Shown: positions 32,278 to 64,000 of the stretch, in pieces | How positions within the stretch are numbered: the stretch's first letter is position 1 | Layout: each line of letters begins with the position of its first letter | NCBI GenBank assembly: GCA_006503475.1 | Contig: RSEH01000107.1 | Coordinates: forward strand, 85,385 to 149,384 | DNA length: 64,000 nucleotides | Direction: 5' to 3' | Source: Stentor roeselii | Taxonomy: Eukaryota; Ciliophora; Heterotrichea; Heterotrichida; Stentoridae | The notes under the pieces: model-generated | What the model saw: the letters and a program-made list of their open reading frames with translations, nothing else | Databases searched by the model: none | Told to the model about the DNA's origin: nothing | Made by a program: the position numbers and the translations under genes

Positions 32278-33153
32278 ATTGTTAATCAAATCTAGAAATC
32301 ATAAAAAACTTGCCCATTTTAGTAAGAAAATTTGCCCTTTGAATGGACTTTTTTATCAACTCTTAATTTTGTAACCATATTTTAGTTAAAAAGGGTGAGC
32401 GATTTGATTTCAATTTATTTTTCGAATCAGTTTTTAACCTAGATCAAGGTTTTTTTATTGTTTTGAAGATGTTTGGATACTTTAGATTGGTTTTGTGAAA
32501 GTTATTAGAGATATTTGATTTGCTTACATCTGATTGTTTTGGCGAAATAAAAGATTTCATAATAAGGAATTTTTTGTATGGAAGAAGGAAAATTTATCAG
32601 TTATTCAATATTTTATAATCAGGTGGATAAGATTGAATCAATAGAAACAATGATGTTTAGTGGCAAGAATTACAGATAATTATTGAATTGAATATGATTG
32701 TTTTAACAAAAATATTATATCTGATGCCAATATTTAGTTAAATGGTTAAATATTTTGGTTAGATAAAAAATTTGTATATTAAAATATGCTGAGATTAATG
32801 TTTATTAGAATATAATCACCACGAGTATTATTTTCCATTTATATGAAAGGTTACCAATATCTCGGACTAAAGCTAGCAATATATATTGAACAGAAAGTTA
32901 ATCCATGAATCTCATTTCTAAAATTTTTGATTGCCATATGAATATAATGAGAAGTGCATATAATTTTATCATCATCAAATCAATATCAAAAAAGGTTAGA
33001 ATTGTTCTTTAATAATCAGAAGTACTCAAGTTAATATTATTTCACCTGATAATTTTCTTATATACTTAATGATTTAAAGATTTATAAACTATACAATGAA
33101 CAATTTTTACCTAGTTCTCTTAGATGTTATTATGAAATCTTTATTAAATATAA
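32278..33153. other. intergenic, nothing recognised
   Basis: Very AT-rich, with stops in all frames and no repeat or RNA gene seen. 32278-32500 is the promoter side of histidine kinase copy 2. The right end leads to a TAA-ATG start at 33154. Confidence 0.65.
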
Positions 33154-43714: not shown

Positions 43715-43803
43715 ATTATTTTAGATTTTTAGAGTTGTGATTGGTTTTATTGACATGATTTCGATTAACATCTCATCTAAATCAACATTCCTTCTATACA
43801 AAA

Positions 43804-46698
43804 ATGGCAACTAAGTCATCAAGACCGCAAGACCTGCAAGAAAAGTCGGAAGGTCCGCAAGTCCTTCTAAGCAAAAGTCACCTTTACATGGAAAACTACT
43901 CCGGCACACCAGCCAGTAACGATTTGATTGTGACTAACACAGGAACCTCAGCCGTTTTTTACGAATGGAAGAAGTACCCTCGTTCAGATTCAATAAAATC
44001 AAAGCGTCCAGACATTGTAACTCGTTTTTACTGCCACTATAGTAAAGGCATGCTTTTGCCGGGCGAATCAAAACGTTTTCTCTTCACATTTATTAGCAAA
44101 AAAGTAGGAATTTTCACGGAAGCTTGGGATTTGCATACTGATCCTCTTGTGGTTAAAGCTATTCCTCAGCTTATTCTCACTGGAAGGGCCTTTGAACCTG
44201 ATAAGATGATTGCTCAGAGATACTTCTTTGAGCAGGAATTCAATAAACGGATTGTCTTGCATACCGCTGAAGAAATTTTGACTGATGTGGTTAGAAGTGT
44301 CAGAACGCCCACTCCCCCTCCTCCTGACCTATCAAACTCAAAAGAATGCCAAGAGCAATTCGAATCCAAAAACCTCTCCGACCAAGTCTGGCACACCGAC
44401 GAGATAATCCTTCTTTTCCGTGAACTCGAGCAAGAAGTCCGTTCCCACCTTCCTCCATCCGACCAAACCGAAATTCAAGACCCTTGGGACTTAAAACTAG
44501 AAAACCTGCGAAAACTAATAAACAAACTTTCAAAGCCAGAACTTCGAGAAGACAAGCAAAAGCGACTGAATTTTTTAATAAAACTTTCAAAAGCCAAGCC
44601 CCCGACCCGTAGTTTATATTGGCCTGAAGCACGAAAAGTTTTAGTCGACTTGACAGAAGCAGTCCCTGGGATCTCCTCAGGGCTGAGAACAGAACTTGAC
44701 TTGGAAGACTACCGCTTCCGACTTCCTTGGGAACTGACTCAAGAAGAACTTGACAAAATCCAAAAGGAAAAAAACGACAAAGAAGCCGCAAGGGCAAAAC
44801 TCGCGAAAGGAAAAAAAGGGAAAACTGAAGATGATATCGGAAAAGATAGAGAAACTTATAAGGAAAAACTCTTTCAACTCACTAAACATTCACTTATCGA
44901 CCTTCTCTGTCGAGGAATAGATGAAGAAAGGTTCATCGTTCAATGGAACCATCTTGAAACCATACAAAAAACAAAAGACCTGCCGAAAGTTCTTCAAAAT
45001 ACAAATCGCCTTAATAAACACATGAAAAACTCTAATATTGCCAATTATGAACTTGCTAGAAATAAAATCGCGCCTTTAAATACAGTGAACTTGGGAAGTC
45101 TCTCAAGAAAATTCGGACTCGCCGATGCGGACCTGGAAGGGAAAAAAGTCATGATTCGAGTTAATTTTAATGTACCGCTCAGTGAAGAGGTTTGGGAAAC
45201 TGAAGAAGTCGACGTTCAGACTGACCCTGACCTTGAACCTATCATGGTGCATGAAAAGCACTGCTTGTTAAGGGAAGTCGTTGATTCTAGAGCTTTGATG
45301 GAAGTTGTACCGACTATTAGGTATTGTCTTGATCATCTTGCGAAATGTGTTGTTATTGTTGGAACTTTAGGACCAAATGTTGGAGAAATTAGAGAAGAAT
45401 TCAGTCTTATGCCTATTTTGAACTTCTTGCAAGAAGAACTTGATAATGAAATTCAGTTCTTTGAAGATGTTGATATTGATAACTTTGAGGAAAAAATTGA
45501 AGATTTACCGGAAAATTCGATTATTTTAATTGAAAATCTGGCTTTTCATCCTTGTGAAATTGGAATTTCAGCTAGTAGAGATGGGGTTGTTAAACATGTT
45601 GATCTTGATAAAATCAGGCAGTATCGAGAGAAATTATGCACTTACTGCGACATATTCATAAACGAAGCCTTTGACGACAAGCACATGAGAAACCTAGGAA
45701 ACGATTCCTGTTCAAACGTAAATCCAGGTTGTTCATCTTTAAACTTTCTAGAATGTGGCTGTGAAGGAGTAATGGGTTTAAAACTAGAAAAAGAGATAAA
45801 AGTTCTTTCAAGTACTTTTTTCGAGCCAGAACATCCATTCGTAGCAATGATTGGAGGAAACAGCCAAAGTAAACTAAGTCACCTTGACAAGCTCGTCATG
45901 TCTTACGCCTTTCTTGACGTAGTCGACGTTTTATTCATCGCAGGCGACTTAAGCCAAATAATCCAATCAGTCCAAAACGGCCATTCAGGTCACGATGCCC
46001 GACTTGACCGTTTTGTGAAGCTTTTCCTTAACCAGGTTCAAGAAAGCAAGAAAAAATTAATCCTTCCAGAAGATTTTATTTACAGTAAAGAACCTCTTGT
46101 CCCTTCAGAGTCTTCTTTTTCTTGGGGACACTTCGCAAGTCTTGTTGTTCCTGCTTCAAATGATGAGATTTCTGCGGAAAACTTGAAAATTGTTGGATTT
46201 GGTGAAAAAACTCGTGAAAAACTTGAAGTTCTTCTTGGACAGTCAAGAAGGTTCTTCTGGTGTGGAAGTCTTGACCTTCATTTTTCTGATAGAAGTGAAA
46301 TTGTGCCTTTGAATAAAACTGCTGTTGAATTTTTCAAGGCACATAAAGAGACTAAAGAACTTTTTGTTACTATTCAAGATGTTGAAAGTTCACTTCTACC
46401 TTTTTTTGAAAAGGAAGAAGGAAGAAGTCCTGAGAAAATCGAGGAAAATGAAGGGTTTGAAGAAGAGGAACAGTCGAAAAGTGAAGAAAGTGCACAGGGT
46501 GAGTCCATGATTGTTCCTGCGGATAATTCACCGGAAGAGAACTTGGAGAAGTTCTTTAGTAACAGGCTTGGGTTGTATCAGTTTGTTGTTGATATCTTGC
46601 AGGCGAAGAAGGTTAGACCGGTTGAGTTGATTAAAGAACATCCTCCTCCTAAGCCTAAGTCGGTGGAAGAAGACACCAGTTATTTAGAAATAATCTGA
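43804..46698 (+). CDS. MYCBPAP-like axonemal protein fused to a degenerate phosphoglycerate kinase
   Basis: A 964-residue fusion. Residues about 20-430 match MYCBP-associated protein (the FAP147-type component of the ciliary central apparatus): NDLIVTNTGTSAVFYEWKK, LLPGESKRFLFTF and VGIFTEAWDLHTDP. Residues about 436-875 follow phosphoglycerate kinase: LEGKKVMIRVNFNVPL (447-459), VVPTIRYCLDHLAKCVVIVG, GTLGPN (520-525) where PGK has SHLGRP, IENLAFHP (577-584) for LENLRFH, IFINEAFDDKHMRN, and MIGGNSQSKLSHLDKL (682-697) for LGGAKVSDKI. Substrate Arg residues and the terminal GGGDS loop are missing, so it is probably not an active enzyme. An acidic tail follows. It starts 89 bp after the channel gene. 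Confidence 0.88.
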   Translation: MATKSSRPQDLQEKSEGPQVLLSKSHLYMENYSGTPASNDLIVTNTGTSAVFYEWKKYPRSDSIKSKRPDIVTRFYCHYSKGMLLPGESKRFLFTFISKKVGIFTEAWDLHTDPLVVKAIPQLILTGRAFEPDKMIAQRYFFEQEFNKRIVLHTAEEILTDVVRSVRTPTPPPPDLSNSKECQEQFESKNLSDQVWHTDEIILLFRELEQEVRSHLPPSDQTEIQDPWDLKLENLRKLINKLSKPELREDKQKRLNFLIKLSKAKPPTRSLYWPEARKVLVDLTEAVPGISSGLRTELDLEDYRFRLPWELTQEELDKIQKEKNDKEAARAKLAKGKKGKTEDDIGKDRETYKEKLFQLTKHSLIDLLCRGIDEERFIVQWNHLETIQKTKDLPKVLQNTNRLNKHMKNSNIANYELARNKIAPLNTVNLGSLSRKFGLADADLEGKKVMIRVNFNVPLSEEVWETEEVDVQTDPDLEPIMVHEKHCLLREVVDSRALMEVVPTIRYCLDHLAKCVVIVGTLGPNVGEIREEFSLMPILNFLQEELDNEIQFFEDVDIDNFEEKIEDLPENSIILIENLAFHPCEIGISASRDGVVKHVDLDKIRQYREKLCTYCDIFINEAFDDKHMRNLGNDSCSNVNPGCSSLNFLECGCEGVMGLKLEKEIKVLSSTFFEPEHPFVAMIGGNSQSKLSHLDKLVMSYAFLDVVDVLFIAGDLSQIIQSVQNGHSGHDARLDRFVKLFLNQVQESKKKLILPEDFIYSKEPLVPSESSFSWGHFASLVVPASNDEISAENLKIVGFGEKTREKLEVLLGQSRRFFWCGSLDLHFSDRSEIVPLNKTAVEFFKAHKETKELFVTIQDVESSLLPFFEKEEGRSPEKIEENEGFEEEEQSKSEESAQGESMIVPADNSPEENLEKFFSNRLGLYQFVVDILQAKKVRPVELIKEHPPPKPKSVEEDTSYLEII

Positions 46699-49363: not shown

Positions 49364-52318
49364 TTAAACAAAGCTTTCGTCTGGGATGTAGTATTCTTTG
49401 CTGAATATCTTTAAACGTAGGTCTTCGAAACAAAGGAATTCTAAAGGAAAATCAACGATAAAACCTCGGATCTCGTTTTTTTTTCTTGAGTATTCGTGAA
49501 GATTTGATTCTTGTTGGAAAGTTTCGATTTCTCGAAGATGTTTCACGTCGTTGTCTGGAATGCATCGGAAGATTTCTTTGAAGATCTCGGTGTTGTTGCT
49601 GGCTGTTGATTTTAAGTAGTTTTCGAACTCGGGGGATAGAGGGTCTTTTAGGATTGATTCGTCACTTGTGCCTAGGATTTCTTTAAAGATGTTGGTCCTT
49701 AACGTAAAAGCAAATTTCGAAACAGTAACATTATTCCCCCCAAGAACACTCATAATTTTTTCATTATCTTTAACAACCATAGCAATTTCCGAATCATGAT
49801 ATCCAAGTAAACTCCTATCATTAATATTTGCACTTCCCACAAGTACAGTAGTATCATCAATAATCATAAGTTTACTATGAACATAAACAATTTCAGTGAC
49901 AGGTTTCTCATTAATAACTCCATGAGTACGAAGTCCATAAAACTGAATATAATCCAAAGGATGAGACACATTCGCATCCTCATAAAGTTTATTAAACACA
50001 GAAGTCCTTCCTTTCGAAATCGTCTCATAAAGCCAATGAAGTTGAACTCGAAGTACAGAAGCTGAATTATCATCAATAGCGCCAGTGAAACCTGGAAGAA
50101 GTGGAAGAACAACGATTACTTTAAACTTTTCTTTTTCAGCTGCAGCGATTTTTATTCTTCTGACAATGGCTTCTGCAATTTGATTTTTGACGAGACTTCC
50201 AGCAGTGCCTGAGACAAAAAACTGGTTTTCGATGTAAATGAAGTGGTTGGACTCGTCGATTAGGTGAAGGTAGGCGTCGTATATTGAACTTTCCGTTTCG
50301 TCTACTCCTAGTGACCAGGTTGATGCACTTCGAATCACTTGGCAGTCACATTTTCCTCTTTCGCCTGGATCTTTTAAGTTGGGCATTAAAAGGTTCTTGT
50401 TGAATGCTTCGTCACCTTCTTCGAGGTCGGCTTCTAAAGCGACTTTCATTTTTGTCTCTTCTTCGGTTTCTAACTTTTCCCGTTTTAATCTGGATTGCCA
50501 GTCTCTTGGCTGCGTCATTGATCTTCGACCGATTAAACCTTTGTTGCTATCCAAACTATTCGTATCAGAGTCCATCTGAACACTGGCATTCCGAAATTCA
50601 CGTCGAACCCTCTCAGGAGCTTGTTCAATATGAATAGCTTTATTTTCATCATATTTTTTCGGTGAAGCTTCCTCAACCTTCAAAACCAGATCTTCAATAT
50701 GAATCCTTCCAGAAGCTTCAGTATCTCCTCTTTTAACTTTATTCTTCGAATTAACTTGAGACATGCTTCTTCTCGTCAAGTTCAACGCAGAGGACCTTGA
50801 CAAATTAACATCATCAGATTCAATGCAAAGGGGATGTCCTCCAGTTGGTTCTAAAATAATTTTATTCTTGTGATAGTTACTCGTGATGTCAGTCATCACA
50901 TGATTCCACAACTCGATGAAGTGAAGAGCCACGTCTGAGGCCACCTTTCCGACTGCCTTTATTCCTACGTCGTGCCATGGCATTCGAGGCTGCTCGTGTC
51001 GGTCGAGACTGTCAGCTGTGTAGTTTTCTACGTTTGAGAAATCTGCGATTCGCACGTTTGAGTAGTCGATTCCATTCCAGAAAAATGGAGACTCTTCGTC
51101 TGACAGGCGGTGCTCACTTGTATCCATTCTACCGAAACAAAGGTCTAGACCTCCGATGAAAGCGATTTCTTGGTCTATGCAGATTATTTTCTCGTGATGA
51201 CTCCATAAAAACTCTCCACCTGCTACTGATCTATGAGGATGTCTAATAACCTTAATATTTTCATGTCTATTTTTCAGTGTCTTCTCAGTATGCAGACTAT
51301 TAAGTGTCAAAGCAAAACTAACTTCTTTATAAACATGCACATAAACCGCAACCCCCCTATCAGCAAGATTCCCTAAAACTTCCACAACCTGAGACCCAGG
51401 AAACCTAATCGAAGGTCTTTTCAAGAAAAGTTCAGGACTAAGCCACCAGTCACTAATAAAAACCTCTCTCTTCGCCGCTAGTAGTGAATCATAAACTTCA
51501 TTAAAATAATTCAATCCATCAACAAACCAGTTGACTTTATTGCAATATCTCATAGGAAAAGAAGAGTTATATCTAAATTCCTCATCAGCCCATTCAGAGA
51601 TTCCTTTTGCATCTTGAATTTCTTTATACCACTCTTCCATTTTAAACTGACTTCCAGCGCGAAAGTAAAATTTTCTATTCTGAGTGATAATAAGTATACC
51701 ATCAGGGTACCCAGTGTCTTGAGTTCCTTTAAGTACTTCAAATTTTCCTTTAAATATCAGAACTTCATGAAGACTAGTTTTCGTGTGATTTGTGAGATAC
51801 CCGACCATGTTCTCTCTTACAATCAGCCATCGTTTTTGAAGTCTTTTACAATGTTTAGTGCAGTTAAAACACCTTTGCTCGTTTCCTACTCGGCCTCCAG
51901 TTCTTTTATTCACGTAGCCCTCCTTGCGTTTTCGGTCTGTGTCTTTGAAACTCAAGGCACTCACTTCTATGAACTCCAGGTACTCTGGAAGACTGGAAAT
52001 TTCAGGGTTTGATGAAAGACTTTGAAGGTATCTTGAAAGGATTCGCAGTTGTTCTTCACTTTGAACTGATTTTAATTGGTTTGGATGGGGAAAAGGCTCG
52101 AAATAGCCAAGGTTTCCTTTTGATTGGGCTCTTGAAAGGTTTTGGTTTAACTCTTCAAATTCTTCGAAGGATCTTGTGATGTGCCAGATGTATTTACCTG
52201 GAGATGTTATTGAAATGATGAAAGTGAATAGTTTGTTTTCGATTGTGTCTAGTTTTTGCTTTGTTTGGATCGGACGAAATGAATGATCTTCTATTGTTGG
52301 GTCGATTTTGAAGTTCAT
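49364..52318 (-). CDS. PLD: phospholipase D with PX and PH domains
   Basis: Hydrolyses phosphatidylcholine to phosphatidic acid at endomembranes or the plasma membrane. The 984-residue protein has a PX-like domain (about 28-120), a PH domain (about 132-242, with a Cys/Lys-rich entry CFNCTKHCKRLQKRWLIV), and two HKD half-sites: HEKIICID (His375, Lys377, Asp382) after GGEFLWSH, and YVHSKLMIID (His814, Lys816, Asp821). Between them a 250-residue charged, Ser-rich linker replaces the usual loop of PLD1. GSANINDRSLLG follows the second HKD. Both catalytic sites are intact. Start is MNFKIDPTIED at 52318; it ends in TAA or TGA-rich DNA at 49364. Decayed copies of its 5' third occur at 57420 and 62430. 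Confidence 0.95.
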   Translation of the reverse strand: MNFKIDPTIEDHSFRPIQTKQKLDTIENKLFTFIISITSPGKYIWHITRSFEEFEELNQNLSRAQSKGNLGYFEPFPHPNQLKSVQSEEQLRILSRYLQSLSSNPEISSLPEYLEFIEVSALSFKDTDRKRKEGYVNKRTGGRVGNEQRCFNCTKHCKRLQKRWLIVRENMVGYLTNHTKTSLHEVLIFKGKFEVLKGTQDTGYPDGILIITQNRKFYFRAGSQFKMEEWYKEIQDAKGISEWADEEFRYNSSFPMRYCNKVNWFVDGLNYFNEVYDSLLAAKREVFISDWWLSPELFLKRPSIRFPGSQVVEVLGNLADRGVAVYVHVYKEVSFALTLNSLHTEKTLKNRHENIKVIRHPHRSVAGGEFLWSHHEKIICIDQEIAFIGGLDLCFGRMDTSEHRLSDEESPFFWNGIDYSNVRIADFSNVENYTADSLDRHEQPRMPWHDVGIKAVGKVASDVALHFIELWNHVMTDITSNYHKNKIILEPTGGHPLCIESDDVNLSRSSALNLTRRSMSQVNSKNKVKRGDTEASGRIHIEDLVLKVEEASPKKYDENKAIHIEQAPERVRREFRNASVQMDSDTNSLDSNKGLIGRRSMTQPRDWQSRLKREKLETEEETKMKVALEADLEEGDEAFNKNLLMPNLKDPGERGKCDCQVIRSASTWSLGVDETESSIYDAYLHLIDESNHFIYIENQFFVSGTAGSLVKNQIAEAIVRRIKIAAAEKEKFKVIVVLPLLPGFTGAIDDNSASVLRVQLHWLYETISKGRTSVFNKLYEDANVSHPLDYIQFYGLRTHGVINEKPVTEIVYVHSKLMIIDDTTVLVGSANINDRSLLGYHDSEIAMVVKDNEKIMSVLGGNNVTVSKFAFTLRTNIFKEILGTSDESILKDPLSPEFENYLKSTASNNTEIFKEIFRCIPDNDVKHLREIETFQQESNLHEYSRKKNEIRGFIVDFPLEFLCFEDLRLKIFSKEYYIPDESFV

Positions 52319-52574
52319 TTTAGTTGGATTATTGAGGATTGTTTATTTTTGATTATTGTGGGGTTAGTTTTTTTGGGTTTGGGATTTTAGGGTTATGATA
52401 AGGTTTGATGTAAATTCAAAGTTTTAAGCCGATGATTTTGGGAGATTTTTTGAATATCAGGATGTTGTTTAAATAATATTGTAATGCATATTATATATTT
52501 AAGCGATAAATATCAGCTTTAAATCTGCTCTAGAGTCCTTTTTGAGATTTCTTTCTAATAATTATCTAACTATT

Positions 52575-55500
52575 CTAATCATCACTGTGACTTCTAATTT
52601 CATTTTCTGATGAGTTGGGCATTCTGTAAATATAACCTAAATCTCTTGCATATACTTCGTTATCTTTAAAAAACTGAAACAAAAACAGCAGCCCAATATC
52701 AGACCCTTTCTTGGTTTGAAGTGGATTCGGAGTCTTATAAATGAAAAAGAGTCCAGCAATAATAATAATCAAGAATCCCAAAGGGGTGATGATTGCCCAA
52801 ACTATAAAAATCTTGAATTCTCTAAAAATTGAACTTGTGAAAACAATCCAAAACGAAAGACCAAGACTAGTTAATTGCGTAATATTTGCGTGCGCATAGT
52901 TATAAGGTTTGAACTTCGCAGTCACAATCACCAATAATCCTATAAAAAGAGCACAAACTAAACCATGAGCGGTCTGGTCACTTTTTTTCAATGTTTTGCT
53001 GAGACATACCAGAATCACTTGAAAAACGCTCAAAATCGACAAATACCAAGATTTTGTCCTGATCATCAAACAAGTTTGAACGTTTTCCCAATAAGGTCTA
53101 ATGAAAGTTGATAAGCTCACGTAAAAAACAAGGAATATAAAAGTCAATATTGCAAAAGACTTGTGATTATCAGAGTAACAAAAGGTGTAACAGTCAGAAT
53201 CCAAGAAAAGGTCAGAAAAATTATCACCAATACTTTTTCTGCATAGAAACAAATTCATCATCATTGAAATCACTGGCATAAAAGTAATGCTCGAAATTAA
53301 TGGTAAGAGAAATTCATTTAAAATTTTCAAGTTTTCTAGAAGCCAGTTATTTTTAACTTTTAGTACATATTTTAAAACTATGAGACAAAGAAAAACTGTC
53401 CAGGAGATGCAGAAGGTTAGAACAAAGTAGTAAAATTTCCAGAATTTATCCTGACTTAAGCTGTAATATTCTTTGTAATTCAAAGATACAAATATATTCA
53501 AATCCTTCAAAGTTTGATCAAAATAAGCAAGATTCGGGCCTAAAATCACAATTTGAAAAAACTGAAAAAAGAAACTAGCAAAAAACGCTTTATCTGAAAA
53601 ACTCGCTTCATAAACGCCTTCAATTTCAAAATAAGCCGAATCAAATTTTTTCCAAGACCAAAAAGCACAAAAAACTGACACAAGGATTAAAACAAAACAA
53701 AGGGGGAGTAGCACAATTAACCCTTTATCAGAATCTTGTATTTGTTTCTCCTCAAATGGACAATCGAATTCATCTATAAAATTGTTTGGAATGGAATCCT
53801 CAGGCCATTCAATCTTATTTTCATACACAATAAAAGTATCTGAAAGTTTGTCTAAAGTTAAAATCGCCTTTTGAGTAATATTTCCACTATCTTCCACAAA
53901 TAATTGAGAGATCTCAAATTTCGCTGAAGCAATGTTGTTATTGTCACGACTAAGATAAATATTTCCCATGCAACCTTTGACTTTGATGTCTCTGATGATT
54001 TTCATAATTTCAGCTGGGTTTTCGATGTCCTTTCCTTGTGCAAGGGCATAATTTATCGCAGCAGTTGCAAGATTAACAGTGTCATAACACATACAAAAAT
54101 ATAAGAGGTTTTCGAATTTTTGGTTCATTTCTTGATAAAGCTGCTGTCCATTTGATCCAATCCATTCTTTATATCCTATTAAGAAGGTTCCAGAAAGTAA
54201 TTCAATCAATTTCTTTTTATGGTTTGAGTCTTTTTCGGTATTGAAATTATCGATAATGCCTATATCTGATACGGTGTATATTTCTCCTTTTCTTACACCT
54301 ACATCATAAAGTCCTTCATAAATCAAGTTACTTCGCCAATTAAATACCATAAAAAACCGGCAACGAGTTGCTTTCGCTACTTCAAAATATTCTCTAAACT
54401 TCGGGAAATCTTCTCTAGTATAGTTCCCTGGAATCACTCTTAAATGCTCTGGGTTCATAATATTAATTCCTCTAATTTTGCATATACTTTCAAAGGCAAG
54501 GTAAACATCAGTATATGCTTCATCATCCGTTCCAAACGCAACAACTGATTTCCATCCAAGTGAAAATATAAAATTCAATCCATTTGTAATATAATCATAT
54601 TCAGAAACAGTCATTTTAACAAAAAAAGGTAAATTTTCCTTACTTTCCACCTTTTTATTTTGAGCAAACGGAGAAATTTGAGGTATTTCCATGTTTAAGT
54701 TCTTTAAAGTAATTGCGTTGCCAAGAGCGCTCTTATACCAGTAACTAGTTAAGTAAAGAATCGGAAGAGGCTTGTAGAGTACTTCATAGAGTTTCTGGGT
54801 GTACCAAGGCGGATCGTACCAAAAAATCCCTGTATCAGTCGGCCTGAGAACAATTTTGAATCCAGGGATCAAGTTTTGCGAGTTGACTTTCGAAACAGCA
54901 TAAATAGCTGCATTGAAGATATGACTAAAAATTGCAGTACTAGACCAATTATAAATCTCATTCGTTCCATTTGCGATAAGAAAAATTAACTCTTTGGTTA
55001 TTGATGTATTGATTGAATTCACGCCTCCTGGATAAAGAATCTCACCAAAAATCAAAGCATCTTCATTAATAATTCCTATGTTTACAGCTTGACTATTTTT
55101 CAAGTTCAATACATAAAAACTTTCACTACTAACTTTTCTTGATTGAATAGTTCTTAAAACTGAGTGATAACAGTAGTTTGAGTAACTTGTACTCGTCTCT
55201 AGTCCAGTTTGGCTCAGAATAAGACTACCTTCAATCAAAACCTCACCCATAGAAAAAGATGAAAAGATGAAAAGTGCTCCAACATCGTTAACCCTCTTCA
55301 TAATCAGGCTGTTTTGAATGATAGCCAAGCTGGGTCCTTGGTCAATAATAATGAAATATTTAAGACCTAATTTTTTTACTTCTTTTTGAATTAAGTTCAT
55401 CCCTCTTTGCAGGTCTAGGTTTTCATCATAAGTGATATGCTTTAAAACCTTACTTTTCAGTCTTGAATAAACCAGATCAGCGAATTTAAGTACCTTGGCG

Positions 55501-55904
55501 GAACTGGAGCTGAAAATAATTAAATTCTTTAACTCGAGCTTTAAAACTAACTTTTCTATGGCTTGAGATTCTGATTCTGTTGATATAAGTGAATAAATTC
55601 GTCTGCTTGATTCTTCGGAATTGAAGTTGGATTCTAAGGTTATGTAGAAGTAACTTGATGACAATGCTAGCTGGTCGAACAAGGGAAGCGCAGACTGCTT
55701 TAGAGTCAAATCTATGAATACCGGCCATGACGAAATAGAAACGTCTGGAAGGGCAGGGATTTCTGAGGACCTTATTACAGCCTTGCTGGGAAATAAGTAG
55801 AACTCAGTAAGAAGGGAAGATGGAGTTTCTTCCGAAAAGAAGACTGGGATCTCATAAAAAGTCTTTTGAGCTAAAACTGAAGCTATTGTTAGAATCAAAG
55901 ACAT
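52575..55904 (-). CDS. large membrane receptor, periplasmic-binding-like ectodomain plus about nine TM helices, copy 1
   Basis: A 1,109-residue protein. The signal peptide is MSLILTIASVLAQ. The ectodomain has an N-terminal lobe with strand-helix order (KNLIIFSSSSAKVLKFADLV, YFIIIDQG, VGALFIFSS) and, from about residue 300 to 690, a type I periplasmic-binding / ANF-receptor fold: FNAAIYAVSKVNSQNLIPGF, IPQISPFAQN, FSLGWKSVVAFGTDDEAYTD, and FAxYDTVNLATAAINYALAQ-like helices. The membrane part (729-1060) has about nine hydrophobic helices, starting LIVLLPLCFVLILVSVFCAF, with a Cys-rich loop DSDCYTFCYSD and KFKPYNYAHAN. Ligand-binding fold plus helices recalls class C GPCRs, but nine helices are too many. 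Ligand and output are unknown. Confidence 0.85.
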   Translation of the reverse strand: MSLILTIASVLAQKTFYEIPVFFSEETPSSLLTEFYLFPSKAVIRSSEIPALPDVSISSWPVFIDLTLKQSALPLFDQLALSSSYFYITLESNFNSEESSRRIYSLISTESESQAIEKLVLKLELKNLIIFSSSSAKVLKFADLVYSRLKSKVLKHITYDENLDLQRGMNLIQKEVKKLGLKYFIIIDQGPSLAIIQNSLIMKRVNDVGALFIFSSFSMGEVLIEGSLILSQTGLETSTSYSNYCYHSVLRTIQSRKVSSESFYVLNLKNSQAVNIGIINEDALIFGEILYPGGVNSINTSITKELIFLIANGTNEIYNWSSTAIFSHIFNAAIYAVSKVNSQNLIPGFKIVLRPTDTGIFWYDPPWYTQKLYEVLYKPLPILYLTSYWYKSALGNAITLKNLNMEIPQISPFAQNKKVESKENLPFFVKMTVSEYDYITNGLNFIFSLGWKSVVAFGTDDEAYTDVYLAFESICKIRGINIMNPEHLRVIPGNYTREDFPKFREYFEVAKATRCRFFMVFNWRSNLIYEGLYDVGVRKGEIYTVSDIGIIDNFNTEKDSNHKKKLIELLSGTFLIGYKEWIGSNGQQLYQEMNQKFENLLYFCMCYDTVNLATAAINYALAQGKDIENPAEIMKIIRDIKVKGCMGNIYLSRDNNNIASAKFEISQLFVEDSGNITQKAILTLDKLSDTFIVYENKIEWPEDSIPNNFIDEFDCPFEEKQIQDSDKGLIVLLPLCFVLILVSVFCAFWSWKKFDSAYFEIEGVYEASFSDKAFFASFFFQFFQIVILGPNLAYFDQTLKDLNIFVSLNYKEYYSLSQDKFWKFYYFVLTFCISWTVFLCLIVLKYVLKVKNNWLLENLKILNEFLLPLISSITFMPVISMMMNLFLCRKSIGDNFSDLFLDSDCYTFCYSDNHKSFAILTFIFLVFYVSLSTFIRPYWENVQTCLMIRTKSWYLSILSVFQVILVCLSKTLKKSDQTAHGLVCALFIGLLVIVTAKFKPYNYAHANITQLTSLGLSFWIVFTSSIFREFKIFIVWAIITPLGFLIIIIAGLFFIYKTPNPLQTKKGSDIGLLFLFQFFKDNEVYARDLGYIYRMPNSSENEIRSHSDD

Positions 55905-57419
55905 TTATAAAATTTTGAATCCATTCATTCAGAAAAACAAAACTTAGGTTTAACGATATATTTTTTGCTAGGATTTATATTGGCTTGGTATTAGTTAAAT
56001 TTAGTTATATTTTAATAGAGTTAGAGTATTTATATAGGAATTTCCTGTCTTGAAAGTTGAAATTTTCCTGATTAGGATGAATTTATTTCTATACTTCACA
56101 ATATGATTGGAAGTTCAATAATAATGAGAAGAATTCATTAAAGTAGATAGAGGAAATCAAGGCCCATCTAGTTTATCTCTCTATTTAAAAAATTGATTGA
56201 AATTATCTGTGTTATCTGGTTATAGATTTGCCTTATTGTCTCCATGTGAAATAAATAAAATCTTGAAAATCATTCACGATTCAGTTTAAAATACTTCTTT
56301 CTAAATTTTTACTTTATTCTTGATCAAAAGTTTTCAATATTTTGAGTGTGGATATTTTATCATTTTAATATTCAAAGTTATCTGAATGAATTTTCACTTG
56401 ATGAGTGTAAATTCCATTATGAATAGTTTCAAATTTCATTATATGATGCCCTACAATCGCTGAAATTATGACTACCGGGCAGATTCCATTCAATTATCAA
56501 AGCTTATAAAATTTCTTTTGCCCTATTTTTAACAGTGTGAAGAAAACAAAACCCAAAATCTCTTTCTACGCCGCCAAATACCCACTTTCGCTTCTATATC
56601 TCCCTATGCTAGATTTTGTCTTTAAAAAGTAAGATTTGTTTTTTTACACAATTATTGATGATAATTTTCATCTATTCTTCCTATGAATTGCTGATTGTAG
56701 TCTAATGCGATTACGAATATATCTTGAAACCAACTAGCTACAGTAGTTCTACTAATCTAAATCTCATGTTCGGCATATTTTTGCAAATATTCATGAGTCA
56801 AAAGAGTATAAAATATATAATTGACTTATCTTCAAATTTGAATTTCAATGATTGACTGATTTTTAGTCCTTTTGCTAATATTACAAAATGGCATCTCCAC
56901 AGATACTAATCATAATTCCTAGAATCTTTGTCAAAGATAAATCTCCAAATTTTTGCATTTTTTAATTTCTTAAATTTTTCTTTTTGGACAGTAAGTAAGT
57001 ATCTAATCTTGTGTAGTGAATTTTGCGACTAGTAACTGAGTGTCCTTTTTTCTGCCGTACTATTTTAATATTAAGGATATCTCTGGTTGTAACAATAACA
57101 ATAAGAATTATTTTTCTTCCGACCAGTCATATTTGAATTTAAATTTATAACTATGAAGTTCAATCAACATGAAATATTGTAAATATATTACTTTTTGAAG
57201 TTTTCCCTCTCTGATAATTTTTTCGAGATTATTTTGAAGAATACGGAATATTTTGAGTATTTAAAGATGCTTTAAGCGAATACTATTTATATGTGAAAAG
57301 TGGTATTTATGAGATAGATGTTGTTCAGTTAAAAATTATTTACATTTTGACACAAATCTCTATAAATACATTTCAACATTATAATTAAACAATAAAGACA
57401 TATATCTGTATCGAAATCC
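55905..57419. other. 1.5-kb spacer upstream of receptor 1
   Basis: Promoter side of receptor 1; 55980-56060 aligns loosely with the flank of receptor 2. Most is AT-rich with no feature. At about 56460-56640 the + strand reads sensible codons on both sides of one stop (SIQLSKLIKFLLPYF, then QNLFLRRQIPTFASISPY), perhaps a trace of an old gene. Confidence 0.5.
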
Positions 57420-58010
57420 CCCATTAATTGATTAAGAAATTCCTTTAGAGTAATGAATTTTATAATATGATTATTAATTTTAAACTGGCTTCCAGTGAGG
57501 AAGTAGAATTTAATATTCTGAGTTCCTATGAGGATACTATCCGAGTACCCAATGTCCTGAGTTTATTAAGGACTTTGACTTTCCTATAAAAATGAGGACT
57601 TTTTAGAGACTGGCTTTTTGTGATTCTCGAGAAAATCGAGCAGTTTTTTTTACAATAAGCTATTGTTTTGAAATTTTTTAATGTTTGGTACAGTTAAAGC
57701 AACTCTTCACCTTCCTCCTCTGCTTCTGTTCTTTATTTATGTAGTCTTCCTTGGTTTTGGTCTGTATCTTTAAATTCAGCAATCACTTAAATGAACCCCA
57801 GGATTTCTTGAAGACTGAAAATATCCGGATTTGATTTAGACTTTTAAGATTCAAGATATTTTGAAGGATTTCCAGCTGCTCTTTGCTTCAAACTAATTTT
57901 AAATAGCTCTACTGTTGAAAAAACTCAAAAAAGTTTATATTTTCTTTTCATATGGCGCTTGAAAGGGTTCAACTCTTAAAATTTACAAAGATTCTTATAG
58001 TGATTCATTT
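57420..58010 (-). pseudogene. decayed 5' fragment of phospholipase D (copy A)
   Basis: Aligns by eye with PLD positions about 51580-52180, the PX-PH encoding part. Shared landmarks in order are TTTTAAACTG.CTTCCAG, GAGTACCCA.TGTC.TGAGTT, GTACAGTTAAA for GTGCAGTTAAA, TTCTTTATTTATGTAGTCTTC for the matching PLD stretch (20-base core shared with changes), GGTCTGT.TCTTT, and GAAGGATT. Many frame-breaking indels and stops are present and no HKD part remains. It lies directly 3' (minus strand: downstream of receptor 1's upstream flank) between receptors 1 and 2. Confidence 0.8.
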
Positions 58011-58464
58011 TGATTAAAGTGAACAAGAAATTTGATGATTAATAATAAAACAGTTACTATTATAGTATATAAAGTAACCTTAAAAATATTGATAAGAAAT
58101 TTGTAGTTTTTGAATATTGAATTCTTTATTTAGATTTAGATCAAATACTCTGTCACTAAATGTATTGCTTAAGTTTGAGATTTTCAGCAGGGATTAATGA
58201 ATAATACAAATATATATTGTGGAAGTTATTAAATTATGATAATATAATTTATTGATAGAAGAAAAAAATTTTAGTAGTTTTATTAACAGAGATTAGATTA
58301 AGGATTAACATTAATTGTTACAGCTTGCTATGATTTATAGATTAAATATAACTCATACCTCTAATAGTTTCAGTTATTCAGGTTAAATCAAAATTTTTCC
58401 CATAAGCTTAAAAACTATCCGAGATTCCTTATAAGCATTTCTAACTAATAATTATCTAACTATT
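58011..58464. other. spacer between PLD fragment A and the receptor 2 stop
   Basis: AT-rich. The last 130 bp align with the 3' flanks of receptors 1 and 3 (AAGCTTAAAAACTA, then the shared CTAATAATTATCTAACTATT). No gene seen. Confidence 0.6.
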
Positions 58465-61400
58465 CTAATCATCATTATGACTTCTAAGTTCAATATCTGA
58501 TGAGTTGGGCATTCTGTAAATATAACCTGAATCTTTCGGGCTAATTTCGTTTTCCTTAAAAAACTGAAACAAAAACAACAACCCAATATCAGACCCTTTC
58601 TTGGTTTGAAGTAGATTCGAAGTCTTATAAATGAAAAAGAGTCCAACAATAATAATAGTCAAGAATCCCAAAGGAGTGATGATTGCCAAAGCCATAAAAA
58701 TCTTGACTTCTCTAAAAATTGAAATTGTGAAAACAATCCAAAACGAAAGCCCAAGACTCATTAATTGGACAATATTTGCATGTGCATAGTTATAAGGTTT
58801 GAACTTCGCAGTTACAATCACCAATAATCCTATAAAAAGATCACAAACCAAACCATGAGCAGTCTGGTCACTTTTTTTCAATGTTTTGCTGAGACATACA
58901 AGAATCACTTGAAAAACGCTCAAAATCGATAAATACCATGATTTTGTCCTGATCATCAAACAAGTTTGAACGTTTTCCCAATAAGGTTTCATGAAAGTTG
59001 ATAAACTCACATAAAAGACAAGGAATATAAAAGTCAATATTGCAAAGGACTTGTGACTATCAGAGTAACAAAAGGTGTAACAGTCAGAATCCAAGAAAAG
59101 GTCAGAAAAGTTATCACCAATACTTTCTCTGCATAGAAAAATATTCATCATCATTGAAATCACTGGAATAAAAGTAATGCTCGAAATTAATGGTAAGACA
59201 AATTCATTTAAAATTTTCAAGTTTTCGAGAAGCCAATGATTTTTAACTTTTAGTACATATTTTAAAACTATGAGACAAAGAAAAACTGTCCAAGAGATGC
59301 AAAAGGATAGAACGAAATAGTAAAATTTCCAGAATTTTTTCTGACTAAAGTTATAATATTCATAATAATTCAAAGACACAAATATATCCAAGTTCTTCAA
59401 AATCTGTTCAAAATAACCAAGATTCGGCCCTATAATTACAATTTGAAAAAACTGAAAAAAGAAACTTGCGAAAAACGCTTTATCTGAAAAACTCGCTTCA
59501 TACACATCTTCAATATCAAAATAAACCAAATCAAATTTTTTCCAAGACCAAAAAGCACAAAAAACTGACACAAGGATTAAAACAAAACAAAGAGGGAGTA
59601 GCACAATTAACCCTTTATCAGAATCTTGTATTTGTTTCTTCTCGAACGGACAATCAAATTCATCTAAAAAGTTTTTTGGAATTGAATTCCCAGGCCATTC
59701 AATATTATTTTCATACACAATAAAAGTATCTGAAAGTTTGTCTAAAATTAAAATCGCCTTTTGAGTAATATTTCCACTATCTTCAAAAAAGAATTGAGAG
59801 ATCTCAAATTTCGCTGAAGCGATGTTGTTATTGTCACGACTAAAATAAATATCTCCCATGCAGCCTTTGACTTTAATGTCTCTAATGATTTTCATAAGTT
59901 CAGATGGGTTTTCGATGTCCTTTCCTTGTGCAAGGGCATAGTTTATCGCAGCAGTTGCGAGAGTGACTGTGTCGTGACACATACAAAAAAATGGGACACT
60001 TCCGAATATTTGGGTCATTTCTTGATAAAGTTGTTGTCCATTTGGACCAGACCATTCTTTATAACTTATTAAGAAGCTTCCAGAAAGTACCTCTCTCAAC
60101 TTCTTTTTTTGGATTGGGTCTGGTTCTCTGTTGAAACTCTCGATAACCCCTATATCTGATATGGTGTATATTTCGCCTTTTCTTACACCTACATCATAAA
60201 GCCCTTCATAAATGAAGCTACTTTGCCAATTGAATACCATAAAAAACCGGCAACGAGATGCTTTCGCAACTTCAAAATATTCTCTAAACTTCGGGAAATC
60301 TTGTCTTGTATAGTCATCTGGAATCACTCTTAAATGTTCTGGGTTCACAACATTAATTCCTCTAGCTTTGCATAAATTTAGAAAGACAAGGTACATGTCT
60401 GCATATACTCTATCATCTGTTCCGAACAAAACAACAGATTTCCACCCAAGTGACAATATAAAATTTATTCCATTTGCAACATAATCATATTCAGAAACAG
60501 TCATTTTAACCAAATAAGGTAAGTCTTCCTTACTTTCCACCTTTTTATTCTGAGCAAAAGAAGAAATTTGTGGTATTTCCTTGTTTAAGTACTTTAAAGT
60601 AATAGCGTTTCCATAAGCGCTACTATACCAGTAACTAGTTAAGTAAAGAATAGGAAAAGGCTTATAAAGTACTTCAGAGAGTTTTTGGATGTACCAATAT
60701 GAATCGTATGAAAAAAGTCCTGTATTTGTCTGCCTGAGAACAATCTTGAATCCAGGGATCAGGTTTAGCGAGTTGACTTTCGAAACAGCATAAGTAGCTG
60801 CATTGAAGATATAGCTAAAAATTGTTGTACTATACCAATTATAAATCTCATTCGTTCCATTAGCAATGAGAAAAATTATCTCTTTGGTCATTGAAGTACT
60901 GATTGAGTTCACACCTCCTGGGTAAAGAATCTCTCCAAAAATCAAAGCGTGTTCATTAATAATTCCCACGTTTACAACTTGATTATTTTTCAAGTTCAAA
61001 ACATAAAAACTTTCAGTATTAACTTTTCTTGATTCAATGGTTCTTAAAACTGAGTGATAACAGTAGTTTGAGTAGCTTGAACTCGACTCTAATCCAGTTT
61101 GACTCAGGATAAGACTACCCTCAATAAAAACCTCACCCATAGAAAAAGATGAAAAGATGAAAAGTGCTCCAACATCGTTGACTCTTTTCATAATCAAGCT
61201 GTTTTGAATGATAGCCAAGCTAGCTCCTTGGTCAATAATAATAAAATATTTAAGACCTAAGTTTTTTACTTCTTTTTGAATCAAGTTCATTCCTCTTTGC
61301 AGGTCTAGGTTTTCATCATAAGTGATAAACTTGAATACTTTGCTCTTCAGTCTTGAATAAACCTGATCAGCGAATTTAAGTACCTTGGCGGAACTGGAGC

Positions 61401-61794
61401 TGAAAATAATTAAATTCTTTAACTCGAGCTTTAAAACTAACTTTTCTATTGCTTGAGATTCTGATTCTGTTGATGTAAGTGAATACATTCGTCTGCTTGA
61501 TTCTTCGGAATTGAAGTTGGATTCTAAGGTTATGTAAAAGTAACCTGATGACAATGCCAGCTGGTCGAACATGGGAAGTGATGGCTGGTTTAAAGTTAAG
61601 TCTATGAATACCGGCCATGACGAAATAGAAGCGTCAGGAAGAATAGGGGCTTTAGTGTAGCTTATATACTCCTTGTAGGGAAACAAGAAGAATTCATTTA
61701 GAAGGGAAGGCGGAGTTTCTTCTGAAAAGAACACTGGGATCTCGAACAAACTATTTTGAGCTGAAACTGAAACTACAAACAAACTCAAAAGCAT
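58465..61794 (-). CDS. large membrane receptor, copy 2
   Basis: Same length (1,109) and layout as copy 1. In the last 381 residues I count 45 differences from copy 1, about 88% identity. The signal peptide differs (MLLSLFVVSVSAQ). Changes cluster in the ectodomain part likely to face a ligand (for instance SYDSYWYIQKLSEVLYKPF and SSFAQNKKVESKEDL against copy 1) and in the C-terminal 30 residues. The first TM helix, the helix pair around DSDCYTFCYSDSHKSF and KPYWENVQTCLMIRTKSWYL are nearly unchanged. The frame is intact from the ATG after AATAA to the stop, so it should be functional. No introns are seen. Confidence 0.85.
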   Translation of the reverse strand: MLLSLFVVSVSAQNSLFEIPVFFSEETPPSLLNEFFLFPYKEYISYTKAPILPDASISSWPVFIDLTLNQPSLPMFDQLALSSGYFYITLESNFNSEESSRRMYSLTSTESESQAIEKLVLKLELKNLIIFSSSSAKVLKFADQVYSRLKSKVFKFITYDENLDLQRGMNLIQKEVKNLGLKYFIIIDQGASLAIIQNSLIMKRVNDVGALFIFSSFSMGEVFIEGSLILSQTGLESSSSYSNYCYHSVLRTIESRKVNTESFYVLNLKNNQVVNVGIINEHALIFGEILYPGGVNSISTSMTKEIIFLIANGTNEIYNWYSTTIFSYIFNAATYAVSKVNSLNLIPGFKIVLRQTNTGLFSYDSYWYIQKLSEVLYKPFPILYLTSYWYSSAYGNAITLKYLNKEIPQISSFAQNKKVESKEDLPYLVKMTVSEYDYVANGINFILSLGWKSVVLFGTDDRVYADMYLVFLNLCKARGINVVNPEHLRVIPDDYTRQDFPKFREYFEVAKASRCRFFMVFNWQSSFIYEGLYDVGVRKGEIYTISDIGVIESFNREPDPIQKKKLREVLSGSFLISYKEWSGPNGQQLYQEMTQIFGSVPFFCMCHDTVTLATAAINYALAQGKDIENPSELMKIIRDIKVKGCMGDIYFSRDNNNIASAKFEISQFFFEDSGNITQKAILILDKLSDTFIVYENNIEWPGNSIPKNFLDEFDCPFEKKQIQDSDKGLIVLLPLCFVLILVSVFCAFWSWKKFDLVYFDIEDVYEASFSDKAFFASFFFQFFQIVIIGPNLGYFEQILKNLDIFVSLNYYEYYNFSQKKFWKFYYFVLSFCISWTVFLCLIVLKYVLKVKNHWLLENLKILNEFVLPLISSITFIPVISMMMNIFLCRESIGDNFSDLFLDSDCYTFCYSDSHKSFAILTFIFLVFYVSLSTFMKPYWENVQTCLMIRTKSWYLSILSVFQVILVCLSKTLKKSDQTAHGLVCDLFIGLLVIVTAKFKPYNYAHANIVQLMSLGLSFWIVFTISIFREVKIFMALAIITPLGFLTIIIVGLFFIYKTSNLLQTKKGSDIGLLFLFQFFKENEISPKDSGYIYRMPNSSDIELRSHNDD

Positions 61795-62429
61795 TTATTT
61801 TATCGCTTCCTTTTTATTCACAGATTGAAAATAATTTCTGTTCAAGTCAATATTCATCTTAGAGTATGCAATTAGGCTTGATATTTTAAATAAATTCATA
61901 ATTTTATAGAGTGTCTAATTCGGCTTGATATTTTTAAATATATTCATATTTTAGATAAAGTTAGATAATTATATAGAAATATTTTTGTCAAAAAATTTGA
62001 AATGCTTCTTGATTTAGTTGAATCAGGCTTTGATAATTCTTGACATTATTTGGAGTTAAGTAGTAGTTAGAAAGCTTAATTAATAGTAATTGAAATTTTT
62101 GATAAAGATTCGATTGTTCTTTGACTTTTTAATCATTTAATAATGCTGCATCTATTCTAGCTTTCAAATCCTCTAAAAAACTTGTTTTTTAACAATCCCA
62201 AACTTCGAATAATCTCGATTCTTTAAATTCAAGACATTCTTATTCATAAATTTCTTAATTTGGTACAGGTATCATAATAAAAGTGAGTTTTTGATAGGAA
62301 TAAATAACAGAAGTATTTCAATTAACTTACGAAAATCATTATAAAAAATATTATTCAAATGAACTTTGAGTTTCTTTCTTTCTGAAACTGAATTAAATAG
62401 AATTTTTTTTAATAGTTCAATATTAGTAT
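61795..62429. other. spacer upstream of receptor 2
   Basis: Promoter side of receptor 2, carrying the short tandem repeat at 61872-61968 and homology to the flank of receptor 1. A minus-strand frame at 62272-62454 is not supported. No gene seen. Confidence 0.6.
61872..61968. repeat. short tandem duplication, about 47-50 bp units
   Basis: Two copies of GGCTTGATATTTTAAATA and the following AT-rich bases start at 61872 and 61919 in the receptor 2 upstream flank. The corresponding receptor 1 flank has a single GGCTTGGTATTAG copy, so the duplication is later than the split of the two receptors. Confidence 0.7.
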
Positions 62430-63060
62430 AGTAATCAGCTCCTTGAAAATTCAATTAGTATAATGAGCTGACTTTATTGAATATCTAATCAGAAAAAAAT
62501 GTAAGATTAAATTCCTCATCAGCTCATTCAGAAATTTCTTCAGTGTCATAAATATCTATTAAGTAAATTGCTCATTTTAACTGACTTTCAGCGGAAAGTA
62601 GAAATTACAGTTATGAGTGAAGATGAGGATTTCATCCGAATACCCAATATCCTGAGTTCTTTTAAGGACTTCAAACTTTAATTTAAAGATAAGAACCTTT
62701 TTAAGACTTGTCTTTGTGATTTTTAAATACCCGATCATATTTTCTCTGATAATCAATTTTCATTTCGCAATCTTTTGGAATTTTGTTCACTTAAACCTAA
62801 TCTTCTTTGCTGCTCAATTTTTATTCTTTTATTCAGTGTCTTTGAAACTCAAGGTACTCATTCATGAACTCTGGAAAACTGCAATGTCAGGTTTGATGAA
62901 ATATTATGAATTAGTCGTAGCTAATTTTCTTTTAAGACTAAATTCACATAACTTTGGGGTAAAAAGACTTGAATTAGTCAAGGGTTTCTTTTATTGATGC
63001 TTGAGAGGTTTGTTCAACTCTTCGAATTCTTGAGGGCTCATAGTAATTTCTTTTAATATA
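62430..63060 (-). pseudogene. decayed 5' fragment of phospholipase D (copy B)
   Basis: Aligns by eye with PLD about 51510-52180, slightly longer than copy A. Landmarks: GACTTTATTG, ATTCCTCATCAGC.CATTCAG, TTTTAACTGACTTTCAGCG, TACCCAATATCCTGAGTTC, GTGTCTTTGAAACTCAAGG and GAGAGGTTTG.TTCAACTCTTC. It preserves GTGTCTTTGAAACTCAAGG exactly, where copy A has changed, so it is the less decayed or was copied from PLD separately. Stops and indels break every frame. The + strand frame at 62716-62997 is an antisense shadow. Confidence 0.82.
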
Positions 63061-63376
63061 AGATTGAATAATTCTTAGTAGTTTCATCGATAATGATTTT
63101 AATTGGCTTGTTAAGATGTCAAATTCTATAAATAATAATTAAAGAACATGAACATAATTATAGATTCGAAATTCCTAATATTTATTTTAATTCGATTAGA
63201 TATTGCATAGGTTTCTTTAAATGTTATACTGAAGCTAATCAATTATATTATACATCATTCATCTAATAGTTCAAGTTATTCAGTTTAAACTCAATAATTT
63301 TAAATATATTTCCCATAAGCTTAAAAACTACTCTAGAGTCCTTTTTGATATTCTATCTAATAATTATCTAACTATT
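63061..63376. other. spacer between PLD fragment B and the receptor 3 stop
   Basis: AT-rich. From about 63300 it matches the 3' flanks of the other receptors (CCCATAAGCTTAAAAACTA shared with receptor 2, CTCTAGAGTCCTTTTTGA shared with receptor 1). No gene seen. Confidence 0.6.
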
Positions 63377-64000
63377 CTAATCATCACTAAGACTTCTAAG
63401 TTCATTTTCTGATGAGTTAGGGATTCTGTCAATATAACCTAAATCTCTCGCATATACTTCGTTATCCTTAAAAAACTGAAACAAAAACAACAACCCAATA
63501 TCAGACCCTTTCTTGGTTTGAAGTAGATTCGGAGTCTTATAAATGAAAAAAAGTCCAGCGATAATAATAGTCAAGAATCCCAAAGGAGTGATTATCGCCC
63601 AAGCCAAAAAAATCTTGACTTCTCTAAAAATTGAACTTGTGAAAACAATCCAAAACGAAAGACCAAGACTCATTAATTGGGCAATATTTGCATGTGCATA
63701 GTTATAAGGTTTGAACTTCGCAGTCACAATCACCAGTAATCCTATAAAAAGAGCACAAACCAAACCATGAGCGGTCTGGTCACTTTTTTTTAATGTTTTG
63801 CTGAGACATACTAGAATCACTTGAAAAACGCTCAAAATCGACAAATACCAAGATTTTGTCCTGATCATCAAACAAGTTTGAACGTTTTCCCAATAAGGTT
63901 TCATGAAAGTTGATAAACTCACGTAAAAGACAAGGAATATGAAAGTCAATATTGCAAAAGACTTGTGACTATCAGAATAACAAAAGGTGTAACAGTCAGA
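63377..64000 (-). CDS. large membrane receptor, copy 3 (C-terminal 207 residues, cut by the window edge)
   Basis: The frame is open from the right edge (first codons SDCYTFCYSDSHKSF) to its stop at 63377, covering the Cys-rich loop, TM helices 5-9 and the tail. It begins beyond the window. It is a mosaic of the other copies: FMKPYW, QLMSLG, EVKIF and LTIII as in copy 2, but VCALF, TSSIFR and NEVYARDLGYI as in copy 1. The frame is undamaged here. I expect about 900 more residues upstream with the same ectodomain. Confidence 0.88.
   Translation of the reverse strand, partial: SDCYTFCYSDSHKSFAILTFIFLVFYVSLSTFMKPYWENVQTCLMIRTKSWYLSILSVFQVILVCLSKTLKKSDQTAHGLVCALFIGLLVIVTAKFKPYNYAHANIAQLMSLGLSFWIVFTSSIFREVKIFLAWAIITPLGFLTIIIAGLFFIYKTPNLLQTKKGSDIGLLFLFQFFKDNEVYARDLGYIDRIPNSSENELRSLSDD

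Follow-up and report, generated by a model that had tools for sequence, protein, structure and literature searches.

The window analysed here, a 64,000-nucleotide stretch of Stentor roeselii DNA (contig RSEH01000107.1, here C12, positions 85385-149384), ends in a tandem array of receptor genes on the minus strand. The initial annotation of this DNA proposed at least three adjacent genes; the array comprises two complete genes encoding 1,109 residues each, R1 and R2, and a third, R3, of which only the 3′ end is present (Table 1). The stretch assigned to it, 52319-64000, indeed encloses the receptor genes, but its start falls within a neighbouring open reading frame (ORF; 49364-52342), which we take from its sequence to be phospholipase-D-like. 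The long ORFs of the window read through under the standard code. R1 and R2 are 84% identical in a protein alignment and match at 89.7% at the DNA level (52532-55885 versus 58422-61775), with a similarity that ends within approx. 130 bases of the coding ends. The corresponding value for R2 and R3 is 91.1% (58341-59088 versus 63242-64000). R3 is incomplete because the window ends at the last base of C12 (149,384). A paralog, L004, breaks off at residue 789, where contig C118 ends. Since both R3 and L004 are truncated at contig ends and their orientations fit, they may represent a single gene that the assembly has divided.

Judged by eye, both full genes begin with a signal-peptide-like N-terminus, in line with the annotation. 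This is followed by two Venus flytrap (VFT) domains, a short linker, a membrane part composed of one transmembrane helix (TM1) and an eight-helix module (TM2-TM9), and a short tail.

Table 1. Receptor genes of the window and their parts (positions in the window; residue numbers of R1).
Feature	Position	Strand	Description	Basis
R1, gene	52575-55904	-	1,109 residues; stop TAG	single uninterrupted frame
R1, signal peptide	55866-55904	-	residues 1-13	boundary by eye from sequence
R1, VFT1	54990-55853	-	residues 18-305; N-terminal lobe of the initial annotation	profile link to VFT1 of L052-L054
R1, VFT2	53757-54989	-	residues 306-716; ends in linker bearing C715	ANF_receptor match
R1, membrane part	52725-53732	-	residues 725-1060; TM1 and eight-helix module TM2-TM9	hydropathy, profile comparison
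R1, tail	52578-52724	-	residues 1061-1109; putatively cytoplasmic	sequence
R2, gene	58465-61794	-	1,109 residues; stop TAG	single uninterrupted frame
R2, VFT1	60880-61743	-		alignment to R1
R2, VFT2	59647-60879	-		ANF_receptor match
R2, membrane part	58615-59622	-	nine hydrophobic segments	alignment to R1, hydropathy
R3, gene	63377-64000	-	last 207 codons only; stop TAG	open frame reaching contig end

The second flytrap is readily recognised. The Pfam family ANF_receptor (PF01094) matches R1 at residues 331-667 (E 1e-9) and R2 at residues 331-665 (E 5e-10), which bears out the periplasmic-binding or ANF-type ligand domain described earlier. In the wider family, every one of the 28 members aligned matches it at E≤1, the strongest with 3.5e-24, and the family profile matches T1R2 with E 6e-8. 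The region preceding it, which had been described as an extra N-terminal lobe, is not matched by any Pfam family in R1 and R2. Profile evidence nevertheless shows it to be a whole second, diverged VFT of the type-I periplasmic-binding fold, of the kind found in the amino-terminal domains (ATDs) of ionotropic glutamate receptors (iGluRs) and in class C G-protein-coupled receptors (GPCRs). Searching the genome with PF01094 yielded 82 matches. The five strongest-matching genes (on contigs C156, C472, C15, C213 and C61), called less derived by match strength only, each carry two separate ANF_receptor matches, all above the cut-off; a hand count adds 15 further frames with two matches, two of the second matches lying below the cut-off. 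Three of the five genes, L052, L053 and L054, all have two ANF stretches. Among the best 60 matches in the PDB, VFT1 of L052 is closest to the ATD of the NMDA receptor subunit GluN1 (E 7e-8), and its VFT2 to Arabidopsis GLR3.4 (E 1e-20), followed by CaSR, T1R and mGluR. The family VFT1 profile aligns with VFT1 of L052-L054 over nearly the whole domain length (probability 98.2), and VFT1 and VFT2 of these three genes align with each other (93.8). Direct comparisons of the family VFT1 with VFT2 fail, that with VFT2 of L052-L054 giving 0.7; the family VFT1 is tied to the flytrap fold via VFT1 of L052-L054. Both flytraps close, by eye, with a ..I.(W/F/Y)PG-like motif. The weak full-length AlphaFold2 (AF2) model is in keeping with a flytrap fold of VFT1: its residues 111-190 alternate between strand and helix and form the best-scored stretch (block means 51-74).

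Helices of the membrane part were counted from hydropathy by an in-house script rather than by a trained predictor of topology. The hydrophobicity averaged over 30 family sequences has nine peaks (around residues 740, 781, 835, 874, 926, 959, 987, 1018 and 1045; shoulders at 882 and 1053 were merged into the adjacent peaks), so that the about nine membrane helices noted earlier stand. Scored singly, the sequences gave nine segments in 16/30 cases, eight in 13/30 and seven in 1/30; the nine of L024 include a tail peak and lack TM2, and the second peak of L017 lies approx. 20 residues off. An AF2 model of low confidence contains nine long helices. We infer that the N-terminus lies outside and the C-terminus inside. 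Under this model, the density of lysine and arginine (K+R) is approx. 0.17 per residue in the inner loops versus 0.12 in the outer ones, a modest difference.

The membrane part has no recognisable counterpart in the collections searched. Besides ANF_receptor (28) and Peripla_BP_6 (5), no Pfam family occurs in more than two of 28 members, as judged from the 25 of 30 matched families that were listed. The membrane part of L053 alone has no match in Pfam up to E 10. Kinship to a solved membrane protein was rejected, as the same query found no PDB sequence up to E 10 and the membrane profile yielded only eight chance matches in the PDB (photosystem II J, best E 0.53). NCBIfam returned nothing for the three proteins scanned. 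With the full model, Foldseek gave no match at E≤0.001; the top one was an unrelated enzyme, maleylacetate reductase (E 0.009), and those ranking just below it included flytrap receptors and binding proteins. Four pattern matches of the L053 membrane part in viral contigs were not confirmed. The membrane module is possibly new in kind.

It is, however, not confined to the receptors. A genome search with the membrane part of L053 gave 86 matches, 75 of which (E≤8e-11) were taken as the family, while 11 weaker ones were set aside. Eight of these 11 belong to a second multi-helix family of 11 loci (L055-L065) on contigs C71, C20, C64, C494, C92, C62 and C508, four of them within 20 kb on C71. Its frames are mostly 1,349-1,547 residues long (two are shorter, 430 and 1,066). 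In the full frames of L055 and L056, many N-terminal helices precede a C-terminal eight-helix module, and no Pfam family scores above cut-off. The 11 C-terminal modules align with TM2-TM9 of the receptors (profile-profile probability 98.7, columns 76-371), and the reverse genome search with these modules recovers the receptors (best E 1.5e-6). Since the modules align to TM2-TM9 and the searches match in both directions, the receptor membrane part consists of TM1 plus a shared eight-helix module. A more distant relative of the module is L066 on C228 (probability 97.0).

That the module also ends a family of very large multi-helix proteins of uncharacterised role would suit a receptor-transporter or nutrient porter as well, in which the VFTs catch a solute and pass it to an eight-helix carrier, much as bacterial VFT-fold proteins feed ABC transporters. 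We regard this as improbable: the proteins scanned match no transporter family at cut-off in Pfam or NCBIfam, the transporter matches among the listed families of the 28 members are weak (Na_H_antiporter, 1/28, E 0.13; the ABC-transporter family PDR_CDR, 2/28, E 0.15 or weaker), and among the best 60 PDB matches the VFTs are nearer to receptor domains than to solute-binding proteins.

The conserved cysteines divide along the same line. C715 in the linker, C888, C905, C909 and H914 are present in 30/30 aligned receptors. The second-family modules have equivalents of C888, C909 and H914 in 11/11 cases with no further cysteine between the first two, and the loop pattern C...C-x4-H is common to both families. 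As C888 and C909 both recur in the second family, this pair probably forms the core disulfide of the module. In the simplest pairing, C715 and C905 would form a receptor-specific tether connecting the VFT2 linker to the TM4-TM5 loop.

The VFT ectodomain and the inferred N-out/C-in sense are shared with GPCRs, and the conserved motifs RPxWE..L.I.TK and KPYNY lie in loops predicted inside. The receptors might thus be metabotropic, with a serpentine membrane part that has either diverged strongly or evolved independently and that couples via its inner loops to a cytoplasmic partner, a G protein or other. We consider this second choice unlikely, though clearly ahead of the transporter. The outer-loop motif DC..FCY.G.H is conserved equally with the inner loops, there are approx. 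nine helices, and eight of these belong to another multi-helix family. 7tm_3 (PF00003) was not among the listed matches of the 28 members at E≤1, nor was it found in R1-R3 or L052-L054. Genome-wide it gave no match above cut-off, and a single one below it, L051 (C446:125496-126143; 31.2 versus 33.5 bits), in a 450-residue frame for which no ANF match is listed; L051 as a relative of the receptor membrane part was rejected (profile probabilities 1.9 and 0.2). Finally, none of 19 genomic G-alpha matches, which cluster mostly around positions 160-262 and which we read as small GTPases, is above cut-off (best 43.1 versus 48.8 bits), a negative that is only suggestive because the completeness of the assembly is uncertain and introns can hide genes.

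A relationship of the membrane part to multi-helix proteins with Ephrin_rec_like repeats was likewise rejected (probability 0.3; 13 of 20 fetched compared). These form a large family of their own; the fetched frames (L031-L050) are 822-1,149 residues long and have a few helices, and several lie in tandem.

The census of the receptor family refers to the 44.39-Mb, 522-contig assembly of S. roeselii, the sole eukaryotic genome covered. Counted by their membrane part, 75 loci, some of them fragments, lie on 47 contigs. Twelve contigs carry at least two loci, and 32/75 loci have another within 12 kb. L022 (C502) and L029 (C214) contain one in-frame stop each (TAA and TAG, respectively) and are either pseudogenes or affected by sequence errors. 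Lig_chan, the pore family of iGluRs, has 10 genomic matches, three of them above cut-off, in frames of 454-675 residues (C521, C391, C92 and others); none of these frames, some of which may be cut short by exon splits, lies at an ANF match site.

Near-identical membrane parts with more variable ectodomains, and from these chemoreceptors diversifying on their ligand side, had been suggested for the array. The first point is partly correct. The membrane parts of R1 and R2 are more alike (89.9% identity) than the ectodomain domains (87.1% and 80.0%), but no more so than synonymous change explains. The ratio of nonsynonymous to synonymous change (omega, Nei-Gojobori) is 0.24 for VFT1, 0.37 for VFT2, 0.26 for the membrane part and 0.36 for the tail, and ectodomain and membrane part do not differ significantly in their nonsynonymous/synonymous counts (138.5/101.5 and 38.7/34.3, respectively; Fisher p=0.59). 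Thus, the inference of a diversifying ectodomain fails for R1/R2, an absent excess of ectodomain change being what the annotation itself had named as speaking against it. None of the five pairs tested differs in this ratio between ectodomain and membrane part. Synonymous divergence (dS) of R1/R2 is 0.19 in the membrane part versus 0.28 (p=0.06). Gene conversion between R1 and R2 is not supported, as the longest run without synonymous change, 35 codons, was matched in 2503/5000 shuffles. dS of ectodomain and membrane part does not differ at 0.05 in four of the five pairs.

The exception is the pair L006/L007 from the array on C476 (C476:40426-47516). Here, the ectodomain has synonymous differences at 0.576 of sites and the membrane part at 0.080 (p=1.5e-37), and residues 783-970 of L006 comprise 180 usable codons without synonymous change, a run found in 0/5000 shuffles. 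Because synonymous divergence collapses in the membrane part and the synonymous-free run is long, the near-identity of the membrane parts (residues ~661-970) is the result of gene conversion, while at synonymous sites the ectodomains have moved far apart.

Across 351 paralog pairs (L004 excluded), conservation is highest in VFT2 and lowest in VFT1: VFT2 surpasses VFT1 in 339 pairs, and the membrane part is better conserved than VFT1 in 300 but than VFT2 in only 57. A most variable outer domain and dozens of paralogs, many of them arrayed, would be in keeping with surface-coat, adhesion or mating-type proteins whose flytraps bind partners rather than small ligands. Since a coat protein should have no need of a multi-helix membrane part that is conserved, loops included, we give this explanation as little credence as the nutrient porter.

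Known flytrap receptors resemble the family in part. In iGluRs, the membrane part consists of three helices and a re-entrant loop. The ATDs of GluN1 and the plant receptor GLR3.4 are the best PDB matches of the L052 flytraps, whereas the membrane part differs, with approx. nine helices and no Lig_chan in R1-R3, L052-L054 or the listed families of the 28 members. Receptor guanylyl cyclases have an ANF-type or VFT extracellular domain. So have Venus kinase receptors (PMC2680970). Both types possess one helix and a cytoplasmic enzyme, in contrast to approx. nine helices and a tail of 49 residues, without an enzyme domain match there in the Pfam scans of R1-R3 and L052-L054, in the present receptors. 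Tandem periplasmic VFTs are shared with BvgS-type sensor kinases (PMC4352136), but the membrane and output parts of BvgS are different and the receptors here have no kinase. Insect OR/GR proteins and the protist GRL proteins are large multi-helix chemoreceptor families working as ion channels (PMC7746228). They have seven helices and an N-terminus inside, and are likened to our family by function, not by sequence.

Class C GPCRs (mGluR, CaSR, T1R and GABA-B) share a VFT ectodomain on a multi-helix membrane part. The receptors described here differ in having two VFTs and approx. nine helices, and neither 7tm_3 nor, in R1-R3 and L052-L054, a Cys-rich domain was matched in the Pfam scans; the linker between VFT2 and the membrane contains one cysteine, C715, that is invariant in the 30 aligned receptors. 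GABA-B receptors also lack the Cys-rich domain, according to an eLife 2025 survey (PMC12716839). The same survey describes glutamate-family receptors from outside the Metazoa, which have varied ectodomains and are delimited by a seven-transmembrane (7TM) signature. In a survey of 27 ciliates, Luo 2023 reported no GPCR of family C (PMC9960496). That study used 7TM Pfam models and allowed three to eight helices, criteria that would miss the present family. We did not find the combination of tandem VFTs with approx. nine helices described in the open-licence PMC literature. This absence carries little weight, and proteins of this kind may well have been deposited in databases as hypothetical ones. 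As far as Pfam, the PDB and this literature go, the earlier statement that no named family has this combination still holds.

A chemosensory role is likely given the flytrap ectodomain and the large tandem family. Our first choice, held tentatively and at a little less than even confidence, is that the receptors are plasma-membrane chemoreceptors in which VFT closure gates the membrane part, perhaps as an ion channel. A small solute would close VFT2, while VFT1 would modulate the response or hold a dimer. Closure might then be relayed through the disulfide-tethered linker and TM1 to the eight-helix module. The module itself would be the output, most likely as a ligand-gated ion channel, and its opening would change membrane potential or Ca2+ and hence behaviour. 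We prefer a channel to the metabotropic output because no cytoplasmic enzyme such as a kinase or cyclase was matched, the tail is short and no G-alpha scores above cut-off. A plain seven-helix GPCR or a known channel family would have contradicted the original description; neither was matched, and hydropathy gives approx. nine helices.

Several observations weigh against the proposed chemoreceptor channel. No known channel family was matched. TM2 and TM6 are weak and 14/30 sequences score under nine segments. The loop 969-977, placed outside, equals the inner loops in K+R density. There are weak Pfam matches to Bax1-I (2/28, best E 0.0026) and 7TMR-DISM_7TM (2/28, best E 0.24). AF2 gave no usable structure (mean predicted local distance difference test scores 39.7 and 30.8), the alignments being restricted to the three sequences of the window, the third of which is partial. 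When VFT1 and VFT2 of the family itself are compared directly by profile, they do not match (4.6). An excess of ectodomain change in the R1/R2 pair was rejected for the whole ectodomain, as reported above, and for VFT2 alone versus the membrane part (p=0.25). Furthermore, the G-alpha negative comes from an exon-by-exon search of an assembly of uncertain completeness.

Elsewhere in the window, we noted two neighbouring paralogous genes on the minus strand (26212-28326 and 30163-32298) that, read by sequence motifs, encode putative membrane histidine kinases with a receiver domain. Two single ORFs on the plus strand were interpreted by sequence reading: 40151-43714 has WD-like repeats followed by a multi-helix segment resembling an ion channel, and in 43759-46698 the second half is phosphoglycerate-kinase-like and follows an unrelated N-terminal part.

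Chemical cues guide the movements of ciliates, and the family presented here provides a large number of flytrap receptors with a different membrane part, i.e. concrete candidates for chemoreceptors in a ciliate. A bolder possibility, which we hold with more doubt than the channel proposal itself, is a receptor class outside all those described, in which tandem ATD-type flytraps would gate an eight-helix channel or signalling core anchored by an extra helix and operate without heterotrimeric G proteins, with approx. 75 loci in one protist and with gene conversion homogenising the membrane halves, but not the diverging sensing halves, of at least one array. GPCRs, glutamate channels, kinases and cyclases are already known to carry the flytrap sensor. 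If the proposal is true, the sensor would here be wired to yet another membrane core.

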